64,000 nucleotides of DNA from positions 23,947,380 to 24,011,379 of the forward strand of contig NC_049982.1 of NCBI RefSeq assembly GCF_000003815.2, given 5' to 3'. Shown here piece by piece: positions 20,715 through 58,700 of this stretch. Both the position numbers and the translations under genes were made by a program. Origin of the DNA: Branchiostoma floridae. Taxonomy: Eukaryota; Chordata; Leptocardii; Amphioxiformes; Branchiostomatidae. Below the pieces are notes generated by a model that made no database searches, was not told the DNA's origin, and saw only the letters and a list, made by a program, of their open reading frames with translations. Position 1 is the first letter of the stretch. Every line of letters begins with the position of its first letter.

Positions 20715-22009
20715 ATGGGGACCAGGCAGTCTCGTCAACCTCGTGACAATCCATATTCTGGAATGGAAATGGTCGTCTTCAGCATGTCTGAAAATTGGTG
20801 AGTGGAACAGCTCGTCATATGTATGCTTACTAATTACTTAGCTGCAGTATCAAGTTCAACCACCAGGAGGGCCCAAATTAAACCAGACCGTCAGGACAAC
20901 TACACTTACCAATGTACCAAATATCATCGCAATCGCAGGGTTGTGTTCGAGAAATATTACGCAGGAAAAGCACCAAACAGACATGCTACCAAAAGTGTGC
21001 GTCCATTTTCATGGAGGTAATGAGCAACGGTTTGCGATGTTCAAGCAGCTGGTGTGCTTGTTTGTCTTGGTGTTTGCTCCGTAGTTATGTGAATATTCCA
21101 GAGTGGTAGCCTTTCAGATTGTACGGTGGAAATGGTGTAATAGGGTTAGTTCTCGTCCAATGTTGTAGCAAGTGAAGCATGTTTTGGTGGAGTGGACATT
21201 GATGATGTCTTCGTCATCAGTGGCAGATTGGAAAATATCCAGGGCGGGCATTGGGATGCTGCTGCACTGAAGGAAGCCATTCTAAAGCAGCTGGACATAC
21301 CACAAAAGATGTTGCTGATGACGGTAACCACAGACTACTCACCAACCATGGTAAGGGCCAAGGCGGAAATCTACAGGAGCCGGGCCTGGAGAGTAGCTCT
21401 GGGAGTGGCTGCTGTGGGAGGTATGCTGTATGCAGGAACATTCGTCAACGGAGGTGTGTACATATGACATTTATTTACGTTTGCCGTGTAGAGCGGCTTT
21501 CTATCATAGCAAGCAGGGCACTAGTCTTAAATCAAAACTGATATTGGTACTTGGATTGATTTCACATATCAAAAAGGACCGTAATACACCTTCAATTTTC
21601 CTTCGTTGTACATATAGCTACGATGGTGACGGCAACAGAGCTGTTTAAAAAAGGCTTTGGCCTTCACCAGACCTCGGTGAGAAAGCTGGCTAAGTTGACA
21701 GGCAAGGATGAGGGGGAGTTACAACGCTTCGTGGATGACAAGCTGTCTGTTGTTAGCAAAGTTCAACAACTCCTCAAAGGTGAAATCAATGTGAAAACTC
21801 TCAGGCAGGCTTTTGTGGCAGCAAATGCTCATCTTGACATCTTTATGACAGCTCTCGCAGTGGATGCTGCCGTCGACGTCGCAGTCCCCTTTGTCGGGAG
21901 TCTAGCGATAGTTCCCTTCTCTTTTGGTCTCGCATGGCGCATACTCTGTATTGTCATCGACGAATATGAGCAGTGCGCGCTCGCTTTGCATGATTTTGCT
22001 TTCCGTTAG
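20715..22009 (+). pseudogene. IRG family GTPase copy A, GTP-binding domain deleted
   Basis: Paralogue of the complete gene at 29554-31902. Exon 1 (20715-20797, begins MGTRQSRQPRDNP) is open and ends at the same GTGAGTGG donor as copy B. Exon 2 survives only from the equivalent of residue 255 (21192-21453, VDIDDVFVISG onward). Exon 3 (21618-22009) is fully open to the TAG and ends CALALHDFAFR. About 745 bases present in copy B are absent: the end of intron 1, the exon 2 acceptor and all G motifs. The joint lies in GTGGACAT, also found at the 3' breakpoint in copy B, with a close match at the 5' one. No stop or frameshift is seen in what remains. It cannot hydrolyse GTP; it is either a young pseudogene or a truncated helical-domain protein. 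Confidence 0.8.
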
Positions 22010-22143: not shown

Positions 22144-22317
22144 CTGTCAAATCTTCAAAGTGATTCATCTCCGCCGTTCCTGGACCGAATGATCTGAAAT
22201 TTGGCACAGTGGTAGAATGGGCCAATACCTTGATGCTTTTTTCTCAGTTTTTTCATATCTGCCTCTAAAATGATTTTATTGAGATTTTTTGGTCAATTTT
22301 AGACCAAAACTGTATAT

Positions 22318-22990
22318 TTTGGCCCCTGTACCCTGGTATTACAACCAAATGAGCTGAAATTTGACAGAGATGTGCCTTGATAATGCCCCCATATAAATTC
22401 GATAACACTTTTGGTGTACAGTACAACAAAATGCTTATTTTTGCGATTTTTTGACCAATTTTTGACCAAAAAAGGACACTTTTGGCCCCTGTTCCCTGGT
22501 ATTACAACCAAATGAGCTGAAATTTGACAGAAATGTGCCTTGATAATGCCCCCATATAAATTCAATAACACTTTTGGTGTACAGTACAACAAAATGCTTA
22601 TTTTTGCGATTTTTTGACCAATTTTCGACCAAAAAAGGACACTTTTGGCCCCTGTACCCTGGTATTGCAACCAAATGAGCTGAAATTTGACAGAGATGTG
22701 CCTTGATAATGCCCCCATATAAATTCAATAACACTTTTGGTGTACAGTACAACAAAATGCTTATTTTTGCGATTTTTTGACCAATTTTTGACCAAAAAAT
22801 GACACTTTTGGCTCCTGTACCTTGGTATTGCAACCGAATGAGCTGAAATTTGACACAGATGTGCCTTGATAATCCCTTCATATAAATTCAATAACACTTT
22901 TGGTGTACAGTGCAACAAAATGCTTATTTTTGCGATTTTTGGCCAATTTTTGACCAAAAAAGGACACTTTTGGCTCCTGTACCCTGGTAT
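22318..22990. repeat. 163-bp tandem repeat, four units and a partial fifth
   Basis: The block beginning TTTGGCCCCTGTACCCTGG recurs at about 22318, 22481, 22644, 22807 and 22969, a period of 162-163 bases. Each unit holds AATGAGCTGAAATTTGACA, a CCCCCATATAAATTC block and TTTTGGTGTACAGTACAAC. Copies differ by few bases. Minus-strand reading frames stay open through several units and yield overlapping frames of 139-205 codons, each repeating the same peptides; this follows from the repeat and is not treated as a gene. Confidence 0.9.
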
Positions 22991-24232
22991 TACAATTAAA
23001 TGACCTGAAATTTGGTATAGATAGGCATTAGATACTTGGTAACAAGATTCAAGTAAAATTTTTGACATAAACAACTTTAAAATGATTAATTTTGGCACTT
23101 TTCTGAGGGGAAATTTGTTTTCTTTTGGCCTCCTGACGTGACCTTCCGTGACCCCGCACAGAGCCACACCTGTGCGCGTCAGCCGGAGAGTTAATTGAAT
23201 CAAAGACCTAGCCAATCAGCGAAGAGGAGGCCAAAGGCTAATTAATATTCATAAGCGGGGCCTCATGATCCCGTATATAGCAGTGTTCCCGCCAGGGGGA
23301 GCGAAGCCCGCCTAAGGCTCTCGCATTTTAGACTATTCAGAAGGCTTTATATTGTATCAGTTCTTAGGGGCATATCTATGATAATCGCAGCAGTCACTTA
23401 TAATAACTTCTCTTCAGGAGTTTAGCGTAATACTATTTCAGGTCAAACCGTCAAAGGCAACTAAAAACAAACTTTAACGTTACTGAGTTCAACAGTACTT
23501 AACGGTATATTTTGCACCCCTGTACCCTGGTATGAGTAACATTTGGTATAGATAGGCATAAGATAGTTGGTAAAATGATCGAAGTAAAATTTTTGGCATA
23601 AAGTACTGTAAAGGGCTTAATTACAGCACTTTTTTTAAGATAGGCATAAGATAGTTGGTAAAATGATCGAAGTAAAATTTTTGGCATAAAGTACTGTAAA
23701 GGGCTTAATTACAGCACTTTTTTTAGGCGAAATTGGTTTTCTTTCGTTCTCCATGCCATGACCTTTCGGACGTTTACCCCACAGAGCCGACATCTGCACC
23801 TGCGTCTAGCCGGCAGGAAGAGTTAATTCAATTAATGGTTCAGCCAATCAGCGAAGAGGAAAGCGAAGGCTAATTAATATTCATAACCGGGACCACACAA
23901 TACGTTAACTTGAAGACTCAGACCGTACAGACTTCTCGCCAGGATTTTTTCAAAGCGTCGGACAGGGGTCCGGGGGCCGCCGAATGTCCCAGGCGGGGTC
24001 CAGGGGCAGGGCCACTGTGGGGGGGACCCAGGTGGGCGAAGCCCCCCCGGAAGCTCTTGCATTTTAGACTATTGAGAAGGCTTCTTTTATCAGTTTTTTT
24101 AGGGCCATATCTACGATAATCGTAGCAGTCACTTACTTCTCTTCAGCAGTTTGACTTTAAAATATTTCGGGTCAAAGCTTCAAAGACAACTAAAACCTCA
24201 TAAACAACAAACTTTACTTAGCTCAACAGTAT
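22972..24232. repeat. Large direct duplication (about 540 and 720 bp copies)
   Basis: Copy 1 (about 22972-23509) and copy 2 (about 23510-24232) share, in order: CCTGTACCCTGGTAT, an ATTTGGTATAGATAGGCAT block, AGAGTTAATT, GCCAATCAGCGAAGAGGA, ATTAATATTCATAA, GCATTTTAGACTATT and a final AACAAACTTTA block. Copy 2 additionally carries an 88-bp internal duplication (units starting at 23551 and 23639) and a GC-rich insertion near 23950-24050. The first part resembles the adjacent 163-bp repeats, suggesting a common origin. Confidence 0.8.
23211..23283 (+). promoter_or_regulatory. Promoter-like cluster: CCAAT, ATTAATATTCAT, TATATA
   Basis: GCCAATCAGC (23211), the octamer-like ATTAATATTCAT (23241-23252) and a TATATA box near 23275 have promoter-like spacing. 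The first two elements are preserved at the same spacing in copy 2 (CCAAT near 23844, octamer 23873-23884), although the DNA around them has diverged. No gene downstream is recognised, so this may be a transposon promoter. Confidence 0.35.
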
Positions 24233-27200
24233 ACAGAAATATTGTACGGGTTGCTATCCTTAGTTGAAGCGCTTATTTATAGCGCTAGTATCTTCGCTGC
24301 GCCGTTAGCCGCCGTGCGACTTTTGTTGACGGTCTGATATCCCTACGTCGCCGCCTCGCTGATATTCCCACGGACATGTTTCAAGAAAAATACCCAGCAA
24401 AAAACGCTGTTCTGCGTCAAATTCTATTCTATAAAACATGTGGGACTCAGTGTTACAGTCTAAATATTTTGTAGAAGCACCGCTGTAGGAAAGAAGGTCC
24501 AAGCAATGTAAAACATCACGTAGTATGAAGTTCGCTGTCAACTGGCACACAGCACATGACTGTTTGAAACTCTAAGTCTAATCAACAGCCGTGTTTGATT
24601 GATAGCCGGCGGTCCCTTGATGAAGTCGGCGAAAGGTGCGTTAGTTAGAAAATCTGCGTTTAGTTTTGATACGTAATTATAAGTTAGACAGTGGCGAGAA
24701 TGATTATTTTCTCATCAATATTTCTCTTCAGAATTATTTGAACTTAATTGTACATCTAAACAATTGGCTTACCTGTGCAATGTTTATATGATTAATGATC
24801 AGTGTACTGAAATCATGTGTAACGTATGGCTCCTAGTCAATAGATCAGCATTTTCTCTATAGTGACCACCTGTCTATAGTGGCCACATTTCCTAGTGCTG
24901 TTGTTGTTTGACATAAACTTTGAACATTTAAATTGTAAGTAACTTTAAACTGCCAGAGTTTCAGCCCAATAAAACACTCTCAGCGCCAGGGTATGAACAG
25001 ACTGACCAGACAGACGAAAATAAATCCTCGAACAAGGTTCAATCGTATCTTCCGGGTCTGGCAGGAAGTTGTTAAACTAAAATAAGAATAGGCTCGATGG
25101 CTGATTGCATACAAAGTAAAACAGTTTAACAGTTTTACAGCTTGAAGAAAACAAACGCTCCTACAGTACCTGCACCTGCTTGATTATTATTAAATCGTAT
25201 GCCCTACTTGAATAAAAAAAGTTCACTGCAATAATAAATGTACCCACATCACAAGGAGCTTATACTTTTTTAAACTTACACCTAGTTATCGTACTGAAAA
25301 TTGTTAATGACATTACATGAAGTCATTCAACAATTTTCAGTCATGATGAAAATTTTCTGAATGGAAGGTGTGATTATTGTCATTTTCTGAAAAATAGAAG
25401 CAAGCTCTGTTTTTACCTGGAATCAATTCACAATACTAGTCCACTTTGGGGGATAATGTACTGTTAAGAGGATGTTCCATTTTTGCGCAGGGGTGATTTG
25501 GAACAGTCCAATGTTGCGTGGGAAGGGGTATGGCTGAAATATGCTGTATTTGCTCTTAAGCAAATGTCGGCCTTTCTAGTTAGAAATATACTTGTTTCAT
25601 ACATTATGAATACTCATGCTGTTCGTCCATCAGGTTTGGTATACCTGAAGTGAAACTCCAGCCTTATTCGTGTGGTGTTTGTCTTAAAAAAATTGTTGTA
25701 ACATTTCATCTAATTATCTATAACATACCAGTAGCAAACGATGTCAGGGCATGTCAGAGGATTCGAATCCAGGACATATGGGTTCCATACGAAACATCCT
25801 AACCATTATGCTACGTAGTCTATAGATTATCAATGGCTGTAACTAAAGATATTATCGAGAGATGTGAGGCATGTTCTGATTGGTTCCTAACAATTTAATT
25901 CCTGTAAGATTGTTATTGACAGAAAATCCTGTCGATAGCCATGGCCTTCTTAGATTGCATAATCGGATCTTCACCTTCATAATTTCACAACAAAAAAGCT
26001 TACCGATCCCAGTTGCCTAAACACGCTGGCTGAAATGCCAGTTTCGTTTTCAAAAGCTCCATATATTCAGTTTATATGTACTATTGTGGAGGATCCGGAA
26101 GTAAGCGAAACCACATTGATGTAATACAGTAGCTGTGTTATATTGATATCATTGATGTTATGGAATGCATGAGACAAAGCTCAGGCTATACAGTCTGCCA
26201 AACAGGTATGTTGAGAATTCTTAGGAATAATTGGTTTTGCTGTTACATGTATCACAAAATGATCACACACATGTATTTGTATGTAAATGTACTTGATGAT
26301 AATGTAATGTACTTAATTACTTAATAAATACTCGGAATGTGGTAAAACCTTTACAATCAACCCCTTATGTGCTGTTTCGCCTGTTATACCGGCAATACTT
26401 ATACAAATACCGAAGTCGTTTTAGGATTTCAGACACGACACGGTAACGTTAACGTAAGTTGCAAGTAACAACTCCTATGAGGTATATTAGCCCATGTAAC
26501 TTAAACCATTCTTGCTTTCTATAGGGTCTTGGATTTGGTTGAAATATTGTTTTACATCCTAACCATGTAACTGTTATAGCAATAAAGAACAAAATAATTT
26601 GTTTTGCTTACTCCAAACGTTTTGTCATTTTTGGTTCGTATGTGAATTCTGGAGATAAAAGTATGCTTAGTTCGAACAGAAGCACGGGACTACAGCCCTC
26701 TTGCCAGCGAGAAAACGATCTGGTTTTGCAGCAACCTCTTCAAGTCATCGTGGACTTAAAACCACCATGGAAATGACCAACCACAGTAGTCCGTCAGGAG
26801 GTGACCCTCCTTCCCAGAAGTAACCGACCAAGTTGAACAACGCAACTTTGTATCTGTCTGTTTGTTTATCAATGGATCTCTTTCTCTTTCAAAATGCTGC
26901 AAGGTGTAGGTCACCTAACAGTGCAAATTAGACTTTGACGCTAGGAGAGCTGTTTGATGTGCTCTGGGCTGAAATGACACGCCTTTGTGTTGACGTTAGT
27001 TGTTTACACCGTCATCTATTGGCGGGAAAAGCTCCTGTTATGCTATGTTATGTTATGTTATGTCACTGTGTAATAGAAAGTGACGACTGAGTGTAATTAA
27101 AAGTGGACACAATACATATTAACGTTACACAAAAATAACTTATATCAGGCGGATTACCAGTCTATTTCCAACTTGCGACGTCAAACCAAAACATTGTTGC

Positions 27201-29553: not shown

Positions 29554-31902
29554 ATGGCGGCCGGCTTTCCTCATCGTGACAATCCAGATACTGGACAGGA
29601 AAGGGTCTTCAGCCAGTCTGAAAATTGGTGAGTGGAACAGCTAGTTATATTTGTGCTTAGTGAAGAGTGCTACTATACTTATAGAGAGAAGTCAATGACG
29701 AAAACTAAATACAACTTCAACTTGTTTCTAGATTGCATTGAAAAGACAAGTAGCAAAATAGCAAACATTAGGTATCGTTGTCCTTGGCGTAGGGAAAGGA
29801 CTATTTGTGAATTCAATCACAGCTGTTTATCGGCAAGATATTGTTTACACCCCGTGGACAAAGGAAACATGTTTAGCTACATTTTTTGGTTTGGAATAAA
29901 AAGGTACATGGCAGAGGTTATTGTTGCGAAACTCCGCAAGAAATAAACTCACTTCAAAATGAACGAAGCTTTATTATGTTTGTCACAATGTCCCGTCTTG
30001 GTCATTGGCTGATCACTTACCTCCTGGTAGTGCTCTCAACGAATAACTCCAAATCCAGAAGTCTCTTCTGATGCTTTATTCACGAATCTTATCACGAATT
30101 TTATCTCTTGTCAGTTGCTGCTGGCAGAGTCTCTACTTCAGTTTCCCTCTAATCCGCATGCGTGTTAGTCTCATTAATATTAAGGCTCATTAATATTAAC
30201 ACTTACCATGTTCAAGTAGTTGGTGTGTGTGTCCGCAATTGTGTGAATATTGCAGAATGGCAGCCTGCCAGGATGTAGGGTGCAAGTTGTGTAACAGGAT
30301 AATAGAATAATTGCATGTCTTTGACTCTGGTCCAATGTTGTAGCAAGTGAAGAACGTTTTGTGTGGAATTGACATGGTTGATGTAGTCTATAAGTATGTG
30401 GGTGTTTTTTTTCCTTCAATACAGTGTGGAGATCAGAAGAGATGACCTAGGTCCGGAAGAGCAGGAGATATTCCGCCGGTTCGCTGACCAGGTCCAGGGA
30501 GTGAGGGGTGACCTGCCCCCAGAGGAAATGCTACAGATGTTACGGAGGGAGCTTGGGACGGACGACCGCGAGGATGCGTGGATGGGGCAGGCGTACGTCC
30601 GTATTGGCATCGTAGGTAGCTCGGGTGCAGGAAAATCCACCTTTATCAACTCCTTCCGGGGACTTGAGGCTAGCGATCCGGGAGCAGCTGACGTTGGAAC
30701 CACGGAAACCACGAGGGAGACTGCAGAGTACCCCCATCCCGAACACGACCACGTCATCCTGGTGGACTTCCCAGGAGCTCTCTTCAAATTACAGGAAGAA
30801 AATTGGCATCCTGTCACCTTCAATATGGAAGAATACAGAGTGAGGTTTGGGGGCAAGATGAAGGAATGCAACGTTTTCCTCGTCTTCACAAGTGAGCGCG
30901 TCCATGACAACGCCGTGTGGATCGCCAAGGTGGCCAAAGATATGGGAAAAAAGGTACTGTTCGTCCGCTCCAAGTTCGATCGGGACCTTGAAGACAAACA
31001 GCGTGACAAACGGAGCTACTTTGCAGGGGGACAGAAGGAGGGCGAAGAACGACTTCTTCAGGAGCATCGAGAGGACTATGTCACCAAACTGGATACACTT
31101 GGATATGGACGCGTGGACATCCGAGATGTCTTCGTCATCAGCGGCATACTGGAGCATGTCCAGACTGGCCATTGGGATGCTGCTGCGCTGAAGGAAGCCA
31201 TTCTAAAGCAGCTGGACATCCAACAGAAGATGTTGCTCATGACAACCACCACGGACTACTCACCAACCATGGTGAGAGTCAAAGCGGAAATCTACAGGAG
31301 CCGGGCCTGGAAAGTAGCTCTAACAGTGGCTGCTGGAGGACTCATACCCTTGGCAGGGACATTCATCAATGCAGGTGTGTATCGTATTCTTACAGATCAT
31401 TTATCTGCCAAAGTAGGCAGAGAACTAGAATCTCCCTGGCTTAGATTAGACGATTTCACTTTTCAAAAATACGATAAAGCAGCTCACTTCCGCCGTGTCC
31501 TCCATTGCAGGTACTATGGTGACGACGATGGCGTTGTTCAAGAAAGGCTTTGGCCTTTACCCGACCTCGGTGAGAAAGCTGGCTAAGTTGACAGGCAAGG
31601 ACGAAGGGGAGTTACAGCGCTTCGTAGATGACAGGCTATCTATTGTCAGCTACGTCGAACAATTCCTCGAACGTGAAATTGATCTGCAAACTCTCACACG
31701 GGCTCTTGTGGCAGCTAATGCTAGTCTTAACATCTTGATGACAGCTATGGCAGTTGATTCTGCTGTCGACTTCTACCTTCCTTTTGTCGGTGGCCTGGTG
31801 ACAGCTCCCTTCTCTTTCAGTCTTGCCTGGCACGCTCTGCGTTTAGTCATAGACCAGTATGAACAGTGCGCGCTAGCTTTGCACGAGTTTGCTTTCCGTT
31901 AG
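29554..31902 (+). CDS. Immunity-related GTPase (IRG/p47 type), complete copy B
   Basis: Exons 29554-29627, 30425-31374 and 31511-31902 (TAG) join in phase to give 471 residues, within the usual IRG size. Domain order: a helical N-terminus (about 1-80), then the G domain with G1 GSSGAGKST (residues 89-97, the GKS form), a G2-region threonine-rich stretch (TTETTRET), G3 DFPG (139-142) and G4 SKFD (207-210). An all-helical C-terminal domain runs from about residue 255 and includes hydrophobic segments (VALTVAAGGLIPLAG; FVGGLVTAPFSFSLAW). In mammals IRG proteins are interferon-inducible and attack pathogen-containing vacuoles; a defence role here is inferred from family. The chosen ATG is conserved in copy A, and exon 1 follows an AAG|GAA acceptor-like site shared by both copies. 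The next ATG, 42 codons into exon 2, would leave the G domain intact, so the start is likely but not proven. Confidence 0.9.
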
Positions 31903-32449: not shown

Positions 32450-34070
32450 TTTGAAATACAGTATACTTGCATTCATGCTGTTCGTCCGTCTGGTTCCCGG
32501 TATACCTGCTGATTGACACATCAGGCTTACATGTATTCAGAAAAATAAAAGCTGTCGTAACATTGCATATAATTATCTATGACGTCGACATAACTAGTGG
32601 CAAACGATGTCAGGTCATGTCAGGGGATTAGAACCCAGAGGTCCCTCTGGGTTCTATGCGAAACACCCTGACCATTATGCTACTTAGTCTAGATAATCAA
32701 AGGCTGTAACTAAAGGATTATCGAGAGCTGTAAGGTATACTCTGATAGGTTCCTACCAATTTCATCCCTGTCAAATTATTATTGACAAGAACATCCTGTC
32801 TTGTCATTAATAGTCTTTGCCTTCTTAGATTGCATAATCTGATCTTTACCTTTAAAACATTTACCAATACTTACCAATCCCAATTGCCTGAACATGTCTT
32901 TTTCATAAGGCACTATTTTGATTTACTCCATACATTCTGCTCGAGCTCCAGTTCGTATGTACCATTGTAGGGGAAGTACAAGAAACCACATAGCTGTGAT
33001 AGTCAGTAGGCTGTTACGTATTACATGTAGATTGATGACATTGATGCTATGTAATGTATAAGAGAAAGCTCTATACAGTCAAGTGAATAATTTTTACTAG
33101 TATCACGTGCATGTATCTATGTGTAAATGTACATCATAAATTATAAATAAGAATGCCACTAAAACCGGTTGAATCAATCCCATACTTCGTAAGCTGTTGT
33201 GCTATACGTTGATGGGCGTTTATACCGGCTTTATATTGATAAAGGAGTCATTTTTAGGATTTCAGAAATGACACAGGTTACTATTGATTTTTTATTATAT
33301 TTTGATTTGATTTATTTTGGCACATATTCAACAATTAAAACAAATGATGATACAGAATGAAAAGAAAACATGCAGGGGGAGCAGAAGCCTATGCAGCTTT
33401 TCGTGGATCCCCCCAGAATATAGATTGTAATGAAGCGTAATGTACATAATCTAGATCCGAGAATGAAATGTAATATACATAATCAAAGCTATTATAACGT
33501 TACCACCTTTTAAACTGCGACCATGCTGTTAAAGGTCGCTTTTTTCAACAATACCTAAGAGGTATGTTATTTTGCTTGAATTAGTGTGTTTTGTTATCTT
33601 CGGTCTTGGATTTTATGCAAATATTGATTTATATCCTGATCTTATATAGTAATAAAGAATAAAATTATTTGCTTTGCTTAATCGTCATATGTTCTGTCAT
33701 TTTTGGTTTGTATGAATGTGTTTTAAATCTTTGGACTCTATGTATATTCGTGAATCTAGAGAAGTATACCCTAGACCTGGAGATAAAAGTGCGCTTATTT
33801 TTCATAAAACAATCTTTAACAGTTTTTTTAACAACCTCTTCATTGTGAACTTAAAACGACCATGGAAATGACTAACCACAATAGTCCGTCAGGAAGTGAA
33901 CCTCCCTCCCGAAGGTAACCAGAACAAGTTGAACAACTCAACTTTGTTTATCAACAGACCCGTTTCTCTTTCAAAATGCTGCAAGGTGTAGGTCACCTAA
34001 CAGTGCAATATAAACTTGGTCGCTGGGGGAGCTGTTTGATTAGCTCTGAGCTGGAAGGACACATCTTAGT
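32450..34070. repeat. Downstream module of IRG copy B, paralogous to 25600-26940
   Basis: The order and spacing of shared blocks match the module after copy A, including the tRNA-like piece (minus strand, near 32600-32690, box A TAGCATAATGGTCAGGGTG, box B decayed to GGGTTCTAATCCCC). Homology continues to AGTGCAATATAAACTTGG near 34000. This shows the IRG gene and its downstream DNA were duplicated as one unit after the SINE had inserted. Confidence 0.75.
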
Positions 34071-34839
34071 GTAGACGTTACACGAATGCGGCAAAGGGAA
34101 CACAGGGACAAAGCTGCGAACAGCATTACACACTTAACTCCAGTACTTCGTCAGAATACGACCCTCCTACTCGGAGTAATGACAAAATGTATATGTCTGA
34201 TCGTTAAACAAGAGTATGGTTATTTATCATCGCACATACAGAATATGTCCTGAACGCCAAGGTAAGTGTGTCAGTCTAGTTTGGCAATATATCACTTGAA
34301 CTGAAACTTGACATGTCATGGTGTAGTCAGGGTAGCTCATCTGTTTCAGCTGTGTCTATATGTACAGGTACATGTAAAACTATCAGATCTAGGACGCTAA
34401 AATTTATCCCGTTCACGAAAGAAACGGACGTAAACAGGTAATGGCGAAGAAGACTGGAGGTCAGGTGTATTTGTAAGACACCCAGGCCAGAAGGAAGGTC
34501 GGAGGTAGTGTGTGCCTGAAAACGTGTCCCGTCAGGGACGACTTTTTGGGAAGTCCGACGGTGGCGTTTGGAACCGCCGCATGACCGGCAAAATAACCTC
34601 TTCTCTTGCCTTTCCTAATGTAGCTTAATAGTCGCAAAGGAGCATTGCAAATACGCTAACACAGAAGCAACGCGTTATCAACTCAACAAGTACATTGTGG
34701 ATATGCATATGGACACAAGTAAAAGGTCAAGAAAAAGACCATTGAAAGCAATCGTACAAACTCTCCAAGCAGATGTTGCCCGATACAGATCGCAAGGTTT
34801 TCTGAGTGACGGCCGGGCTTCTCGGACAAATCCCGTCAC

Positions 34840-34854
34840 CCCCCCCCCCCCCCC
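34840..34854. repeat. Poly-C homopolymer run
   Basis: An uninterrupted run of about fifteen C within the left foldback arm; the right arm lacks it. Likely replication slippage or an assembly-sensitive site. Confidence 0.9.
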
Positions 34855-35460
34855 ATATAAGCAGATGAACAATTGGGTAAAAGACCAAATTTATCAAAGG
34901 AAAACTGACGATGTCCTTCTGTTCTTAAGCTATTCAATACGTACAGCATATGCTGTAGACATTAATGTAGGTGGCGCTTCGACGGGCGGACATGGTGTCA
35001 CAGGGGCTCCACACGCGGCGCCTAAAAACTATCCTTTTTATGTACACTAGTGTCTTTGACGTCATTCTAGATGTGTATTAAGATATCTGGACCTATTTGA
35101 GAAAGATTTCACAGACTTTAATCATAAGTTCTTGGTCATTTTCACGTTTCACAAGTTGGGACTACATACCCTATGAGAGACCAAGCTGCAGTACATGCGT
35201 CATGCAAAGTGGCTAAATGACTGCTAAATTGCCAACTTTCCTTCTTTTCGAGAATGGGGAAATGGTGAAAGACTCGCAAAGGGGTTTGAATTTTTGTGGT
35301 TTATTTGACTTTGTCTTCCAAAATGTGACCATTTGAGATTAAAAATGGTAATATCTAAGACCAACAAAACCACGAGATATTAGGTAATAAAAGACACGTT
35401 GCCGTAAACCAATAGAAGTGGTCAAGTGCATGTCCCGTAAATAGTCTATTAGGTTACAAC

Positions 35461-35640
35461 ATCCAATTCTATTTTGGGAAACATGCACGACGACGTTCAA
35501 CAAATGCAACGATGTTTCTGTTTCATCAATAGATCCGAATTTTATTTCAAAATATTGTGAGCTGTGTAGATCACTTGTGAATGCAATATAACATTGGGAG
35601 CCAGGGAAGCAATATGACGGGCCATCGGCTGAAAGAACAA
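35461..35640. repeat. Third, diverged relic of the IRG downstream module
   Basis: GTTCAACAAATGCAAC, TTTGTTTCATCAATAGA-like spacing, TTTCAAAATATTGTGAGC and AGTGCAATATAAC-like blocks align in order with 33920-34040 and 26840-26960. Similarity is visibly lower than between the two main modules, so this copy is older. Confidence 0.55.
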
Positions 35641-37291
35641 CTTACCGTACAAATTACCTCAGGAAGAGGGAACATTGATGACGGATTTAGTGCGTATTAT
35701 ACATCAAGTACAGTCGAAGTGGCCTTCTGTGGTACAGACCTGGCAATGATGAAGATGGAATAAGAGATGTGAAAATACAAATGAACAGGAGCCGCAAAGA
35801 CGGAAGCACAGAATGGACGCAATAAGCTAAAGATGGGATCATAAGAGAGCAGAACCACAAGATCAAATAGATAAATCATGATAATGATAAAAACGTGTAT
35901 TCACTGGTCATCATTCTGAGTTACGTCTCCGTCACACCATGTACCATATAACATTATTATCATTCTTCGTCATTTTGCTTCAAAACAGTCTATTGAAATT
36001 AGCTACATACAGTCGACACAGTCAAGAAATACAAATGCTCTCCTTTGGACTTTGGTGTAGACTTTTTGCGTTCCATTTCAATAATCTGTGCTCCAGTTTT
36101 GGCAAAACCTTCCTATGTATTCGATTCGTATATTCAAATCACTTAAAATTGTTCAACCTTCATTATTGCAAATTCATTAGCACAGAAGGCCACTTCTACT
36201 TGATTTAATCAATGACATTCTATATGATGTCCTTGATTTAATCAATTACACCCTCTTGACATCCTAAAAACTGATTTGAACTAGCTCAACAAAGATCACA
36301 AAGTTTTTTAAAAGAACTTTGATACCGAGAACATGGTGTAACAAACACTAAATCAGTTATCTTTGTTACTTCATCAGGAGGTAGAAGAAGGTGTAACAAA
36401 CTGATCCAATATCCAGTTTATGTCTTAAATGTTGCCATTATTAATCTGAAATGGTGATATTTTGGAAGACAAAGCCAAATAAGCCACAAAAATTAAAAAC
36501 CCCTTGCGAGCTTTTCACCATTTCCCCATTCCTGAAAAGACGGAAAGTTGACAATTTGGCGGTCGTTTTAGCCACTTTTCAGAACGCGGCCGGGAGCGGT
36601 ACTGCAGCTTGGGCTCTCCTGGGGTATGTAGTTCCGACTTGTAAAGTGTGAAAATAAACAAGAGCTTATGCTTAAAGCGTGCGAAAACTTTCCTTCATAG
36701 GTCCGGATATCTTAATACACATCTAGAATGACGTTTAGGACGCTAGTCGACATAAGAAGGATCGATTTTTAGGCGCCGGGCGAGGAGCCCCTGTAACACC
36801 ATGTCCGTCCGTCGAAGCGCCACCTATATTCAAGTATGTATCATATCTTGTACGTAATAAGCAGGTTACGGATGTATGTGGACATTACCCGCTTTCCTCT
36901 GACATCTTTGGCCTTTCACTCAAGTTTTCATCTACTTACATAGGGTAAAAGTCTGTCAGAGAAGTCCGCTCGTCACTCAGAAAACATTACCAGATTCCAC
37001 CCCAACATCTGCTTGGAGACCTTCTGCGATCTGCTATGACAACTTTTACTTTCACTTCATTTTTACTTATATCTATATGTATATCCACATCATTGTTAAG
37101 TTGATAACGTCGTTTTCGTGTTTATATCTTTGCAAAACGCCTTTGAGACTATTAGTCTACATAAGGAAAGGTAAGAGAAGAGGGCGGTTCCAAACGCCAA
37201 GTCTTCCCAAAAAGTCGCCCCGGACGGGACACATTTTCAGGCACTTACCACCTCCTTCCTTCTACCTGTCTTATACAAACATACCTGACCT

Positions 37292-49741: not shown

Positions 49742-52700
49742 GCACACACAGACACCCTGATTTTCAGAGACATACAAAAAGGCAAACAGACAAGCATACA
49801 CAGACACACACACAAACCAAAGCAAGTACCACACATCCCTATCCGTACCTGACCACTATCTACTCTGAAGAAGGCCAGCTGACAGGGTTTGTTCAGCAGG
49901 TTAGCGAAACACACGAAGGCGTCAGCTGGCTCCATGTTCAGGATCAGTACTGCTGCCAGGAACGACATCCCCTGGACCTGGGGAGGGGCAGGCAAAACAT
50001 GTATTACAACTGTATCTCATCATGTGCCACCTAAAATTTAACAGTTCTTTGTGGATGTCGATGTGCAGATGTTGGCACATTGGCTCACCAAATCCGTAGT
50101 GCGTTTTTTGCACACGTTTAGACACATGAGCCAAAGAGGCTCGGTGGGAGTCACTCCACTCCAAAGTTGTGGAAAGGCACTTTACACAACCTTTCGCAAG
50201 GCCACAACGTTGGGGCATGGTGGATATCTAACTTGGGACCTCTTGACTCTGAGCCCAACGCGCTATCAGTCACGGCACACCAACGCCACTACACCTACAC
50301 AATCAAAATAGCTTTCTACATACTAACTTTAATTTCAAGATATGACAATGATTTTTTGCTTTAGGTCATTTTGAGCCACAAGATAGGCTAAGCTATAGAA
50401 GGACCCAAGAGGAGAAAATTGTGAACGATCTGTCACCACTTGCTTGTTCCTTACTGCCCTTAGATTTATATCAATTTCAATTTTCTATCTAATATTGAAA
50501 ACAAGACTTAAAAGGTACATATTCCGATATCTGGCCGGATATTTAACAGAAAATTAATGGGAAAATGTATACATTCAAATACATAAGAAAGTTCAAATTT
50601 CTTTAGAAGTTTGAATAGATGGATGAATACGTACATATCCCACATCTGGCCGGTAACACACGTACGCCCCCAGAACTCCGTGCAGCATGTCGTGGTACGG
50701 TCCACCCTGGGGACAGGAAACATACATGATTACTGACAAATCTGATAAAACAACGTTAACAACTATGATACATTTATAACTTCTAGGTCTATGGCTTCTA
50801 TCAAACTATCTATGTCAAAACACCACATTATGAATCATTAAGATGTGTTTGGCTCAGTGTTTTATACGTGTTCTATTAACCTTTCACTAGGTCCGTGTTA
50901 ACTCGTAGCACTGAGCCAGTTACTACATCTGCTCATCAGGCTAAAAAACTAATGGCAAAAGCAATAATTACAGTAATCCAGCAGTTTTGTTTTCAGACTG
51001 CAATTTCAATGTCTAATTGTAGTAAGATGTTATGACCAAGAAAGACAGATTTTCTTTAGACATGGTATAGAATAGAACAAACAAGTCCTATAGTCCATGG
51101 GCCAGACCCCCAAATTTTACATATCAGTACCACCTGAGGGGGCAAATTTTCCTTATGATTTTTAAGTAGTAGGGTATCTGAGGGATATATTTTGATATGA
51201 TAGCCATCGCAGAGTGGTAGCTTTGACCCGGCTATCTGCCCTTGACCTTTTGACCCCAATCTGGACCACGCCCTTTGATATGATTATACAAATGGGTGTG
51301 TAAATCAATTAAACAATAATATTTTCAAATGAAACTTGCTGGGCTGATACAGAATGAATCAAGGATTACAGAAAACTTAATTTCATTTCCATATCTGGAT
51401 CCTATGAAGAGTTATGAGTCTTTTAATTATTATTTTTGAGCAAATTTTGGATGAAAAATGTTAATTTCTACTTTTCAAAGGCTGACATTTATTCTGAACT
51501 CACATTTGACCTTTTTTCATGCTTTTATCTGCTTTGCTGTATCATTCCCTGCATTCTAAAGTTTAAATCATGAAAATCCGCCATTTCTATCTAGAGATAT
51601 GAGTACCTAAATAAATACACACCTACAGGCATTGTGTTGGGGAAACCGTTGCTAGGGCCGTTGCTATGGAGGTGCTGGGCTGCAATCCCAAGCAAAATGC
51701 AGTACAAAGCCTAGTCTTTTGATATATTTTATGTCCTTATACCTTCCAACATATTATAGAGAACATGTTAAAGGTGTCATATGTAAGGTAAAGTATAATT
51801 CTAGTTTAAAACTTACATGCTATATGTATAAGTTAAATAGCATTATCATCCTACATGCATAATAGGCCTTGCACGAGTGTGCATACTATTTCCCACAACT
51901 ATGAAATAACACTTGACAGTGTTACATGTGTAGCAGGCACCGATGACAACAATGAAGGGAGTATGAGGCAAGATTCATATGAGTCTGCTCTGGATACTGC
52001 GTATCAAGAGCTGTTCCAATTCATACGGAATGATCTGTTCAGCAACCCTAGGGTACTACGAATGACAGACCTCTCCTCAAGATTAGTGGAGTCTATAAAG
52101 TCTCTTGGTATAGAGCAGATCAAAGACTCCACCAAGAAACACATGTGGCGGAGTTTAGAGAGCGAGTTTTGTAGTACCCTACACTTCTTTTCTGATGACA
52201 ACCGCAGACTGTTTGTCTATCCTGACAATCTATCTAGATGCGACCTTGTCAAAGCGCATCAGGCCTTACAAAAGGAGCTGAACACTCTTAAATCACTCCT
52301 TAACAAAGATGTTGTTGCCAAGGCAGCCCTGTTACTTAGAGACGACATAAGAAAGCAGGATGTTTCTCAAGCCTGGCCACCGGTGATCACAGAGGAGGAC
52401 CAAAGTAGAGACATCATCCCTCCGTCAGTCGTCAAATTCTTCTGCTACTTGCTGACAGGCGGTTTCAACAATGCCGATGCATCACAGAGGGTGGAACGAC
52501 TTGTGACCTCATTCGGATATGACATTGTGTATGCTGTAAGCCAGGGAAAAGTGAAAACACCCAAACACATCACTTTGGCTTTTTCCATCAAGTGACTGAC
52601 AGGAAACGTGGAGCTTGTGCAACTGCTGAACCGACTTGGTTACAGTGTTTCTTACAGTACTATGGAGGAAATCAGTACGGCCCTTTGCCTTCAGAAGCTG

Positions 52701-55700
52701 TCAAGTGGTGATGGTGACATAACCCTTCCAAGTAACTTGCATAATCAAGTTTTCACCACACTTGCCTGGGACAACATCGATCGACTGGAAGAGACCATAA
52801 GCGGTGGCCGGACATCTCATCGTGTCAATGGCATTGCTGTCCAACCCAAGGTAACAGAGTCCCCTGAAGTAGAAGCCCTCCCTCCATTGACTAAAACAAA
52901 GAGAAGAAGCATTGACGCCCAGCAGCCAGCATTGCCAGCCTACAATGTTGGCCAAAGAGAGGGTACTGAACCATGCCAATCTGTTGACCTTGAGCAAGAT
53001 GATATCACTCACACTACACGGCTGAAGAACATGATTTGGATGATAGCTCGTATACTTAAACAAAAAGAGCAAAGCATCAGCAGCTGGACAGGCCTCTACA
53101 TCAAATCATGCAGTGATGTCCAAGTAATCCCTGACGTTTGCTAACTTCCCACCATCAATGCCCCTCCAACACAGATGTTCACCGTGTACGAAATTCTCAG
53201 GCAGTCCTTAATCATTAAGGATAAGCTTCAGTTAAAGAAGATCGTCTGTGTCTTTGATCAGGCTATCTATGCGAAGGCGACAGAGGTCATATGGAAGCAC
53301 AAAGATATTTTCAAACCAATAGTCATCGGAATGGGATCTTTCCATACATGCTGTACACTTCTGGCAATTATCGGAAAACGCTTCCAGGGTGCAGGTCTGA
53401 GGGACCTTGCCATTGAATCTGGGGTAGTAGCAGAGGGTTCGGTGTCTGGAGTGATGGACGGACGCAGGTACAACAGAGCAGTCAGGTTCCACAAGCTAGT
53501 GTACGAGGCCTTACTCAGGCTTGTGTGGTCAGGGTTTCTGTCCTGGATGCGTCAGAACCACAATGAGGATCTCACTGACCTGGAAGAAGCAACGGAAACC
53601 ACTGACACCACACCAATGATGTATCACAACAAGCTTTACTAGGCATCCTACAGTCAGCAACAAATAACAGATTCTGAATCATGTGCATGTTTGACAACTA
53701 TGTCACCACCCTCCGAAGTGAGAGCAGCCGTCTCACACAGTATTGGATGTCCTACATCGAACTCGTAGAGATTTTGCTGGGTCTCCTTCGAGCAACGAGG
53801 GAGGGTGATTGGCTGCTACATCAAGTGTCCATCCGCCAGCTCATCCCATGGTGCTTTGCCTATGACAGGGTAAACTATGCAAGGTACCTGTCATACTACT
53901 ATGCACAGATGTCACAACTGCAATCCCAACATCCAGACGTGTATGCAGAGTTTATGAGAGGACACTTTTCTGTTCTGTTCAGATTGGCCATGCAAACCCG
54001 TTTGGACGTATTCCGGTTGACCAGACTATTGAGGAGACGGTGAACAAAGACACACAAACCGCCAGGGGGACAAAGGGGTTCAGCCTTAACCACTCAGCTA
54101 TATCAAAGTACTACTTCACAGCAGAACACAGGTGAGTATCTACTTGAAACAACTGAGGGACATGACTAGTGGTGCCAAGAGTAGTAAGTTTTCTCATAAA
54201 GATCTACAAACTACACGCATTACAAGGGATGAAGCCGATGTCAGCTCATTGGTCGATTTAATGGAGAACAACTGGATCAACCCAATGTCCTCAGAAGAGC
54301 CCGACCTTGTCAGCTTGTCCACGGACAGTGTGGCACATCCCTCCCTACATATTTCCAACGCACACCAAATGGGAGAGGACGCCTATGTCTCCTTCCGAAG
54401 GAATCGCTTGGAGCAAGACCCACCAGAAGTAAAGTTCCATGACAAGCTGACAAAACTAAAACTGAAGACATTCTCCAATATTGGCACTAAGAAGACCAGT
54501 GAAAAGGGCAAAACCAAAGAAGTTGTCCTGCAGGTGGACAGAAACCTGTTCAGGCACATTATACTGATCGCAGAAAGCAGGCAGCTCCGCATTAAATATG
54601 TCCTGACACATCCTCTCGGTCCCCTTCCATGGTCTCTTGCAAATGCTGATGGCACTTTACGTAAGACCAACAAAGCTGCCCTTGCAAGAGAGCTGGAGAG
54701 TCGTGTTTCACCAGCAAAAGACACCCCCAGCTCCATCCACCTGTCCGATCGATGGCATGAGCATCCTGCAAAAGATCAACGGCAACAACATAACGTTTTC
54801 TGGGCTAGCAAACACCACAATGTCCATAGTTCTGATGGAAGTTGTGAACAGTCACAGAATTGATGTTGTATTTGACGTGTAAAGGGACCAGTCCATCAAA
54901 TATGCTGAGTGGTTCAAGCGTGGGTCCAGTACAGCATTACAGTACAAAACCATAACTGGTTCTGTCCAGTTCAAACAACAAGTCATCCGTGATCAAGTTT
55001 CTGATTGAAGAATGGAAGCAGCCAATCTACAGAGAGAAACTTAGGAACAAGACGCTGTATGCTACCTGTGAGGATGCCTGCTACATGTTCACTAAAGACG
55101 AATGGGTGGATATTGCGGAGCTACAATGCTCACAAGAAGACGCTGACACGCGCCTCCTACTTCATGCACTCAACGCTGCTGAGTCTGGTTCTGAAGCAGT
55201 TATCATCAGAGCAGACGCTCATGGTCATCAGCCTCGCCTTCGCTAAACGTATCCCATGCAAGGTGTACCAAAAGTGCGGTACAAAGAGCAGGACACGATT
55301 CATTGACATTGACAAGTTGGCAGACGCATTGGGAGAAGAGGTCTGTAAAGCATTGGTTGGACTACATGCATTCACAGGTGGGTACCAGTATTGCCTTACC
55401 TCACGAAGATTTACATGTACACTATGCATGTACCCCAAAAACATTTTGCATGATAAGTCCACAATATTTTTAAACACATACTTTGCATAGTTTTGTAACA
55501 TGAATTTTGCTTAACAGATACAATCAATTGAATAGACACACCTCACATCTACAGGAGCTGATAGTGAATGTTAAATGCCACTCTTAATGTTGTTTCCCAG
55601 GATGCGATACTGTCATCGCATTTTCTGGCCGTGGAAAGTTGGGCGCTTTCAAGCTTATGTTGAAGAATACCAGAATGCATTTCAGCAACTGGGAGAAAGC

Positions 55701-58700
55701 TGGACGGTACCGGTGTTTCCTGATGGCAACCTGTTCAAGAGGATTGAGCGCTTCACCTGTCAGATGTACGTGTCGTCTACGTGTCGTAGCTGATGTAAAC
55801 GAGATGCGGCACCACTTGTTCAGTGCCAAAAAGGGAAATGTGGAATCAAGTGCGCTACCACCATGCCGAGACTGCCTTCACCTACATGTTAAACGAGCAA
55901 ACTATCAAGCCAGTGGAGGGGGTGCCTACAGAACGACCCTCAGGTACCAAGCCCAGTAGATGCAGGATGGAAGTTAGATGAAGATGGTAATCTCTCCATC
56001 ACATGGCTACAATCACCTCCCGCGCCAGCTGCTGTACTGGAGCTGCTGACATGTAGCTGCTCTGGGTCATGTACTCTGCCCTCCTGCTCCTGTCTTGCAA
56101 ATGGTTTGAACTGCACAGAAATGTGTAAATTGAAAGACTGTAGCAACAGGAAAGATGAAGAAACCGAAGAGGATCTGGACATTGAACTCTTCTCTAGTGA
56201 TGCTGATGACACATCTAGTGATACTGATGATGAATAGATAATAATCAAATGTAAAGTTGACGTGATCATGATAACTGTGCTTGTACATGCCATATTTTGT
56301 AAATACTCAGGGCATATGGGTTGTTAATCTATATAGACAAAAAAAACAAACTTGTTGCTTTGCAGTATGTAGTTACAGCTTATGCAGCTATGGTTTATGA
56401 TATGGCATCGCCATGTTATCAAGTAGATAAAAAGTTATTTATTAACTTGTTATTAGATAAACATAATACTCATTAACTCAATATCTTATTGGTCAGCTTA
56501 TTCTACACCTGATTACTCTTCCAAAACAAAAGTTTTTCGACAAAAAAGTGGATTTAGCACTGCATTTTGCTTGGTATTGCAGCCCAGCACCTCCATAGCA
56601 ACAGCCCTAGCAACGGTTTCCCCAACACAATGCCTGTAGGTGTGTATTTATTTAGGTACTCATATCTCTAGATAGAAATGGTGGATTTTCATGATTTAAA
56701 CTTTAGAATGCAGGGAATGATACAGCAAAGCAGATAAAAGCATGAAAAAAGGTCAAATGTGAGTTCGGAATAAATGTTAGCCTTTGAAAAGTAGAAATTA
56801 ATATTTTTCATCCAAAATTTGCTCAAAAATAATAATTAAAGACTCATAACTCTTCATAGGATCCAGATATGGAAATGAAATTAAGTTTTCTGTAATCCTT
56901 GATTCATTCTGTATCAGCCCGGCAAGTTTCATTTGAAAATATTATTGTTTAATTGATTTACATACACATTTGTATAATCATATCAAAGGGTGTGGTCCAG
57001 ATCGGGGTCAAAAGGTCAAGGGCAGATAGCCGGGTCAAAGCTACCACTCTGTGATGGCTATCATATCAAAATATATTCCTCAGATACCCTACTACTTAAA
57101 AATCATAAGGAAAATTTGCCCCCTCAGGTGGTACCAATATCTCCTCTGGCCCATGGACTACTAGTTTGGAAATTAGTAAAAAGTTGTGCAATATTTACAT
57201 GGGTAAAATGGGTACAGGATGATGATCATGAATGGATGAAAAGACGTTGAATTCATAGTTTTTATGTAAATCCCATAGACCATGGATTGGGGTATTCATA
57301 TCATCATAGCTATGGAATCCATCACAATTAGTCATGAATTCCATGGCTGTGAAATGTTTGGAAGGTGAGGTAACTGATATCAGTACTTAGTACAAATCCA
57401 CAATACTCTAGTGGCTATGGTCGCCGCAAAAGAGAAATTTGCTTAGGCAACCTATACATGTAATTCCTAGGGCTGGGCAAGTTTTATCAATGAAAAAGTG
57501 CACAGTACAGCCACAAATTTTGTGACCAGAAAAAAGGTCCTTTAAACTAAGAGTAAGCACCTTTACAGGCACAGTCAAACTTGGTCTCATAAATGCCCAG
57601 ATGAAACTGCAAAAAAAGTGGTTGCTGGGTAGGTAAAACAGACGGTTAGCACAGGGTCTTAGCTGTTGGATGAGACTGTTTCAATGTGGCTTGTTATGGC
57701 TGGAGGTGGCTATCTGTGCCAGGCGGTTGGCTGACCAAGTTTGACTGCACATGTAACTACAGACAGAAACTGAGCTGTCTTAGGCCTACGTCTCATTTCC
57801 AAACTGGGGCCCGGCCAGACAGCTTTCAAGAATAAAAAGTATGATATAGAAGACACCAAGACGACCAAGAGAACGGTCGTGGGCATATTTTGTGTAACGC
57901 TAGTTCACCTTTATCGAGGGGTAACCTTTATCCGTTGTCTTTAAAAACGGTACATTTAGGAGTATTACATTTGTAAGTCTGAGGACTGTGGTTTCAAATT
58001 TTCAATATTTTCTAAATGTTCCGATTTGAAACCACCTTTCGTCGACTTCATATCTCTAAATACGCTTTTTTGCAAATAACGGATATAGGTTACCCTCGGA
58101 TAAAGGTGAACCAGCGTTATATTTCTACCTATACGTTTCTATTTTTTGTTTTCAAAAACAGCCAAGCCAGGCCCCAGTTTGGAAATGAGATGGAAGCCTT
58201 ACAAAGCTCAGTGCATGTGTGAAATACTAGCATATGGGTTCCATGATCTTGAAGCTATACTGTATAATGTTTCAAAGTTTAAATATTCCTTTTCAAGAGT
58301 ATAAGAGTATAAGAGACTTTACAAACTCATTTACCATTTTCACGACAGTGCCTTTGTCCACTATTTCTTCCTGTTAGGCCAGAAAACAGTGTTAGTTGTC
58401 TTTTTTGGTGTTGATATTTCCGTGGACAAGTCATGACATAGGGCATTCCAACCCAAGAAACATTCACATGAAATTGCAAGCAATTATAAACAAACTGAAA
58501 GATGGTATTTTTAGGCTTATACTTTTATCAATTGCTTGCAAATGTCATCCAATTATTTTTTTTCAGCTAAAAACATAAACATAGAAATTAATTTCGATTA
58601 TGATATGCTGATTTGGTTTGATGAAGTTGGAATGCTCCAGTACACATCCGTGATTGGTTAGATAGGTGATCCTCAATTTCCAATCAAATGACAAAAAAGT

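Follow-up and report, generated by a model that had tools for sequence, protein, structure and literature searches.

What is the segment of about 6 kb that lies between two long inverted arms on contig C4 of the amphioxus Branchiostoma floridae, and what kind of protein does its decayed gene represent? The window analyzed here is the whole stretch of 64,000 nucleotides, C4:23947380-24011379 (NC_049982.1), and the same assembly (513 Mb, 431 contigs) was searched for copies. I regard the segment as a cut-and-paste DNA transposon with long arms whose gene is dead in this copy, quite probably of the Academ superfamily (AcademX type). Two other copies with both arms, the sister copy L011 and a third copy L010, and the more distant relatives L035, L037, L038, and L070 are referred to by these labels.

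Arms, copies, and target duplications

The limits of the element are as follows.

51091..57160, forward strand: whole element, 6,070 bp (arms and flanking CTA)
51091..51703, forward strand: left inverted arm, 613 bp (inverted-repeat search and alignment)
56559..57160, reverse strand: right inverted arm, 602 bp (inverted-repeat search and alignment)
51088..51090, no strand: left copy of the 3-bp target duplication CTA (flank reading)
57161..57163, no strand: right copy of the 3-bp target duplication CTA (flank reading)

The original prediction of an element of about 6 kb with inverted arms of about 0.6 kb and CTA on both flanks was thus borne out to the base. The two arms are identical at 563 of 577 positions in their main block, and they are the longest among the inverted repeats listed for the whole window. 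The junctions read CTA/TAGTCC at the left and GGACTA/CTA at the right. The outermost 16 bp are the same at both ends, while the next short stretch differs between left and right. Since L010 and the short elements L014, L016, and L017 show a left/right difference of the same kind, the two ends are distinguishable.

Is this element repeated in the genome? A search of the assembly with the 613-bp left arm gave at least 60 matches, and copies with matching arms are present among them; the copy counts are lower bounds, 40 of the 175 candidates of this search having been scored. At least six loci, the window included, form a subfamily at 90% identity or more to the left arm. Both arms are present in three of them (the window, L010, and L011), while L009, L012, and L013 are fragments or single arms. 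L011 is about 7.3 kb long, and the window copy is shorter by 1.2 kb. At least 30 further loci match the first 146-150 bp of the left arm at 77-79%. In four of these, both ends were read, and they are short elements of 1,178 bp (L014), 1,375 bp (L016), 1,305 bp (L017), and 1,146 bp (L056).

A perfect 3-bp duplication was found in all eight insertions with both ends readable, the window included, and the triplet varies in sequence. By end reading, it is CTA in the window, TGT in L010, ATA in L016, TAT in L037, GTA in the C8 relative (L038 together with L053), and TAA in L014, L017, and L056. This count omits 11 fetched loci that have no readable end pair (L009, L011, L012, L013, L015, L018, L054, L055, L057, L058, and L059). 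Empty sites were found for two relatives. When the flanks of the C8 relative (9,085 bp) were joined, they corresponded to an uninterrupted stretch on C9 at 180 of 180 positions and also fitted three more places at 98-99%; in the three of these four places that were read, GTA stands only once. The joined flanks of L037 gave 20 places across the junction at 73-89% identity, and the two that were read each have a single TAT. In sum, a single triplet stands in all five places read out of 24. The empty site of the window copy itself was not found, as a genome search with its flanks gave only the self-match, and this counts against the mobile reading for that copy.

Could the segment be a host gene lying in an inverted segmental duplication that is not mobile? 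The presence of both arms in just three of the six loci of the window subfamily might be taken that way. However, the eight 3-bp duplications, the exact empty sites of a relative, and the 30 or more other loci that match the outer end speak against it. For the group, this explanation is essentially refuted by the empty sites and the duplications, and I give it hardly any credence. The predicted membership in a mobile family with a 3-bp duplication stands on these readable insertions and on the empty sites of the relatives.

A dead gene and its intact-looking relatives

The gene of L011 is apparently intact: its two exons, open over 1,462 and 224 amino acids, join across a GT-AG intron. The whole protein layout occurs in a single frame in L035 (1,583 amino acids), in L037 and L038 (1,516 amino acids each), and in L070 (1,466 amino acids, open at the 5′ end). 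In these intact-looking relatives, a zinc-finger-like N-terminus is followed by a large half that probably contains a DDE core, then by a FEN1/XPG-like nuclease, and finally by a C-terminal cysteine cluster. The window copy shows the following features of the gene and its decay.

51923..51924, forward strand: deletion junction (1,198 bp of the L011 sequence missing), the same in L010 (alignment to L011 and L010)
52593..52595, forward strand: in-frame TGA, common to L010, where L011 has TCA (comparison with L011)
54724, forward strand: 1-nt frameshifting insertion, common to L010 (alignment)
55378..55600, forward strand: GT-AG intron splitting the GCD motif, also in L011 (sequence; L011 intron edges and open frames)
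56235..56237, forward strand: stop codon of the gene (sequence)

The deletion takes a 5′ part of the gene that includes a C-x2-C...H-x2-C block conserved in the relatives. Compared with L011, the window copy has 13 further coding indels, nine of which are not a multiple of three, and its exon 1, read in the L011 frame, contains three stops. The window copy is gene-dead. A single large decayed gene with an EDADTR motif and a C-terminal cysteine array had been predicted from the sequence, and it is indeed there. The intron that splits the GCD motif is absent in the seven relatives readable at this position (L035, L037, L038, L066, L067, L068, and L070), and it was probably gained in the window subfamily, judging from these alignments.

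How did a dead copy spread? The window copy and L010 have the deletion junction, the TGA, and the 1-nt insertion in common, while their contigs and their 3-bp duplications differ. Because the lesions coincide and the duplications differ, it is suggested that the window lineage was probably already gene-dead when it moved and was carried in trans by an enzyme from other copies. Gene conversion could be another source of the common lesions, and it weighs against movement in trans. As for substitutions, the window and L010 agree against L011 at 126 sites, L010 and L011 agree at 110, and the window and L011 agree at 107. The pattern is almost star-like, and therefore the branch common to the window and L010 is short. 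Among the more distant relatives, three long blocks aligned between L037 and the C8 copy show 98.6-99.7% identity, and the left and right arms within each of these two elements are identical at 586 of 587 positions (L037) and 584 of 586 positions (C8 copy). Such near-identical arms and copies indicate fairly recent movement.

The nuclease module and the candidate DDE half

The EDADTR motif appears to be part of a nuclease module of the FEN1/XPG/EXO1 type. The remains of this module and of the cysteine cluster in the window are as follows.

54519..55790, forward strand: FEN1/XPG-like nuclease remains (motifs and profiles)
54751..54753, forward strand: D of the DGM motif
54874..54876, forward strand: D of the VFD motif
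55136..55153, forward strand: EDADTR motif
55606..55608, forward strand: D of the GCD motif
56052..56141, forward strand: C-terminal cysteine cluster, CXC-like (PF03638, E 0.021, below the cut-off)

Module alignments of the relatives contain the ordered motifs DGM, VFD, EEADT, DTD, and GCD...G-x-GK; the window copy has lost DTD through an 8-bp deletion near 55218. The order is that of the FEN1/XPG/EXO1/GEN1 family. The element's module differs from that family in being embedded in a transposon protein and in being too diverged for the Pfam XPG models. When a module profile of eight rows was compared with PDB, Exonuclease 1 accounted for the first five of ten matches (best E 3.2e-4). With nine rows (alignment A9, in which two rows are the exons of one gene, and from which L069, which breaks off, and L038, which is nearly identical to L037, are omitted), it accounted for the first five of six (best E 3.8e-4). 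The nine-row profile was also run against 2,064 translated fragments, of which 503 came from six host loci found with PF00867; the others were taken from those parts of the window that lie outside the element. Fragments of five of the six XPG-family loci ranked first, second, third, fourth, and sixth, with E of 7e-4, 0.004, 0.017, 0.81, and 2.6, respectively.

Several results weigh against the nuclease assignment. With five rows, Exonuclease 1 again came first in PDB, with five of seven matches, but at an E of only 0.049, and with a whole-protein profile it was found at only 0.17. In the host comparison, the sixth XPG-family locus (L063) gave no match, only two matches were above the HMMER inclusion threshold, and all of them lie on the GCD...GK segment. 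No Pfam XPG model matched at E of 5 or below in the nine members of A9, nor on the window pieces or the scanned relatives, and the elements were absent from the genome matches of PF00867. L037 on its own yielded a single match in PDB, which was meaningless.

The CXC family (tesmin/TSO1, PF03638) matched the window copy, L035, L037, L038, and L070 at E of 0.013-1.1, in every case below the cut-off, and did not match exon 2 of L011. Pfam and NCBIfam searches with nine pieces of the window gene gave sub-threshold matches only. The relatives gave further sub-threshold Pfam names, which were judged to be chance. Thus, of the predicted nuclease-like/CXC protein, the nuclease is found by profile through Exonuclease 1 and the host XPG loci, and the cysteine cluster is present, but its CXC name stays below the cut-off.

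Which part would carry out the transposition? The N-terminal half likely holds a DDE-type (RNase-H-like) core, as suggested by its conserved residues. Its remains in the window are as follows.

52596..54060, forward strand: candidate DDE half remains (alignment to relatives; frame changes within)
52770..52772, forward strand: invariant D (WDNID)
53256..53258, forward strand: invariant D (FDQAIY)
53343..53345, forward strand: invariant H (SFH)
54031..54033, forward strand: invariant E (DQTIE)

In the numbering of L070, the positions invariant in five relatives are D341 (DNID), D552 (FDQAIY block), H581 (G-x-FH), and E799. These widely spaced D, D, H, and E positions are retained between proteins that are about 30-36% identical. 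Which of them would form the catalytic triad is a guess because further invariant acidic positions exist. A PDB profile search with this half found no match, a point against the DDE assignment. Alternatively, the FEN1/XPG-like module may itself be the transposase, with the N-terminal half serving only DNA binding or targeting. In favor of this idea, a relationship to solved enzymes was detected only for the nuclease. Nevertheless, the retention of the spaced D, D, H, and E between such diverged proteins and the listing of Academ as a DDD/E superfamily in PMC9587614 argue against it, and I consider it very doubtful. As the N-terminal half is likelier to be the strand-transfer part, the nuclease is probably accessory. 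The original prediction had taken these proteins for transposases; the likelier transposase part is this N-terminal half, whereas the EDADTR block sits in the probably accessory nuclease.

The N-terminal half of L070 matched DUF6589 (PF20231), a Pfam family of unknown function, at E 7e-4. The score of this match, 18.8 bits, is below the cut-off of 27, and the window pieces, L011, L035, L036, L037, and L038 gave no DUF6589 match. The window's genome has at least 55 DUF6589 matches. In five places, a DUF6589 match is followed closely downstream, on the same strand, by a FEN-like module match with the same printed open-frame length.

C3:1293524-1295863: DUF6589 and FEN-like module, open frame of 1787 amino acids
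C6:26077746-26080337: DUF6589 and FEN-like module, open frame of 2762 amino acids
C7:10621306-10623888: DUF6589 and FEN-like module, open frame of 2147 amino acids
C9:929644-931953: DUF6589 and FEN-like module, open frame of 1886 amino acids
C11:10202961-10205264: DUF6589 and FEN-like module, open frame of 1338 amino acids

These five places, all with long open frames, make up a group that is more distant. The sequence of the nuclease part only was read for the C7 copy (L067) and for another place, C6:13800648 (L068). A search for DUF6589 in the literature library used found no paper. I tentatively propose, at somewhat less than even confidence, that DUF6589 may be the catalytic core of AcademX-type transposases, which would process transposon ends with a built-in FEN1/XPG-type nuclease in a two-nuclease pathway in animals.

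Filing among transposons, neighboring repeats, and meaning

The nuclease of AcademX elements is XPG-like. In the passage of PMC10045372 on these groups, AcademX has 3- or 4-bp duplications and a nuclease, the kind of which is left unstated there, AcademH has 9- or 10-bp duplications and a helicase, and the duplication length is linked to the enzyme. Academ is counted among the superfamilies with a DDD/E transposase in PMC9587614. The element was filed under AcademX because this lineage is reported to combine a nuclease in the transposon protein with a 3-bp duplication. Its size of 6-7 kb is also near the mean of 5,565 bp given for curated bivalve Academ elements in the relevant passage of PMC10294476. 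On the other hand, the C-terminal cysteine cluster is unmentioned in the AcademX description as given in that part of PMC10045372. AcademH would belong to the same superfamily if the Academ filing is right, but it differs in its 9-10-bp duplication, against 3 bp here, and in its helicase (same passage of PMC10045372). No helicase family was among the Pfam matches for L035, L037, L038, and L070.

The probable AcademX filing is weakened by its basis, a published description instead of an alignment with an Academ reference protein. A separate, unnamed superfamily would have in common with AcademX only the duplication length and an independently acquired FEN-like nuclease. It would agree with a link to Academ that is by description and not by direct sequence, and with a family below the cut-off on every Pfam model tried. 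Yet the combination reported for AcademX and the bivalve Academ size speak for Academ, and I find a separate superfamily improbable. Of the two predicted options, an Academ-like or a still unnamed superfamily, the former is the best filing and the latter is not needed. The element is most likely a member of a little-studied but already named group. Literature searches gave no relevant paper joining Academ with XPG and nothing on Academ in amphioxus transposable elements; for XPG with transposase terms, no title among the matches listed was of this kind, and "CXC domain" was absent among the matches listed for CXC with transposase terms.

Outside this genome, scans of viral contigs with the profiles A1 and A4 and the proteins L067 and L035 found no relative. 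A scan of bacterial and archaeal genomes found one, L070, on JAJRVU010000273.1 (6,512 bp), which is binned as a metagenome-assembled genome of Planctomycetota. This contig is probably a eukaryotic contamination of the bin.

The window also has other repeats. Nested inverted arms of 60, 103, 171, 147, and 61 nt, 75-87% complementary, lie at 34494-37262; they probably represent a further and older inverted-repeat element, about 2.8 kb in size. Just outside the transposon there is a foldback of about 460 bp (57760-58221; outer arms 82 nt at 74%, inner arms 53 nt at 83%), and a tandem array with a period of 163 bp occupies 22154-23105. Dispersed direct repeats, 80-86% identical, pair 21185-21915 with 31106-31808 (about 9.9 kb apart) and 26745-26998 with 33840-34080 (about 7.1 kb apart).

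How might such an element work? The element protein would bind the arms, and with its DDE half it would cut the 3′ ends and join them with a stagger of 3 bp, from which the 3-bp duplication would arise. At the transposon ends, flaps or the other strand may be trimmed by the FEN-like module, and the cysteine clusters may help DNA binding. With intact-looking relatives, near-identical arms, and exact empty sites, one animal genome offers what a functional test of an Academ-type system needs. These results also suggest a meaning for DUF6589. Proteins with DUF6589, or with the layout of a nuclease plus a cysteine cluster, are worth checking as transposon genes.

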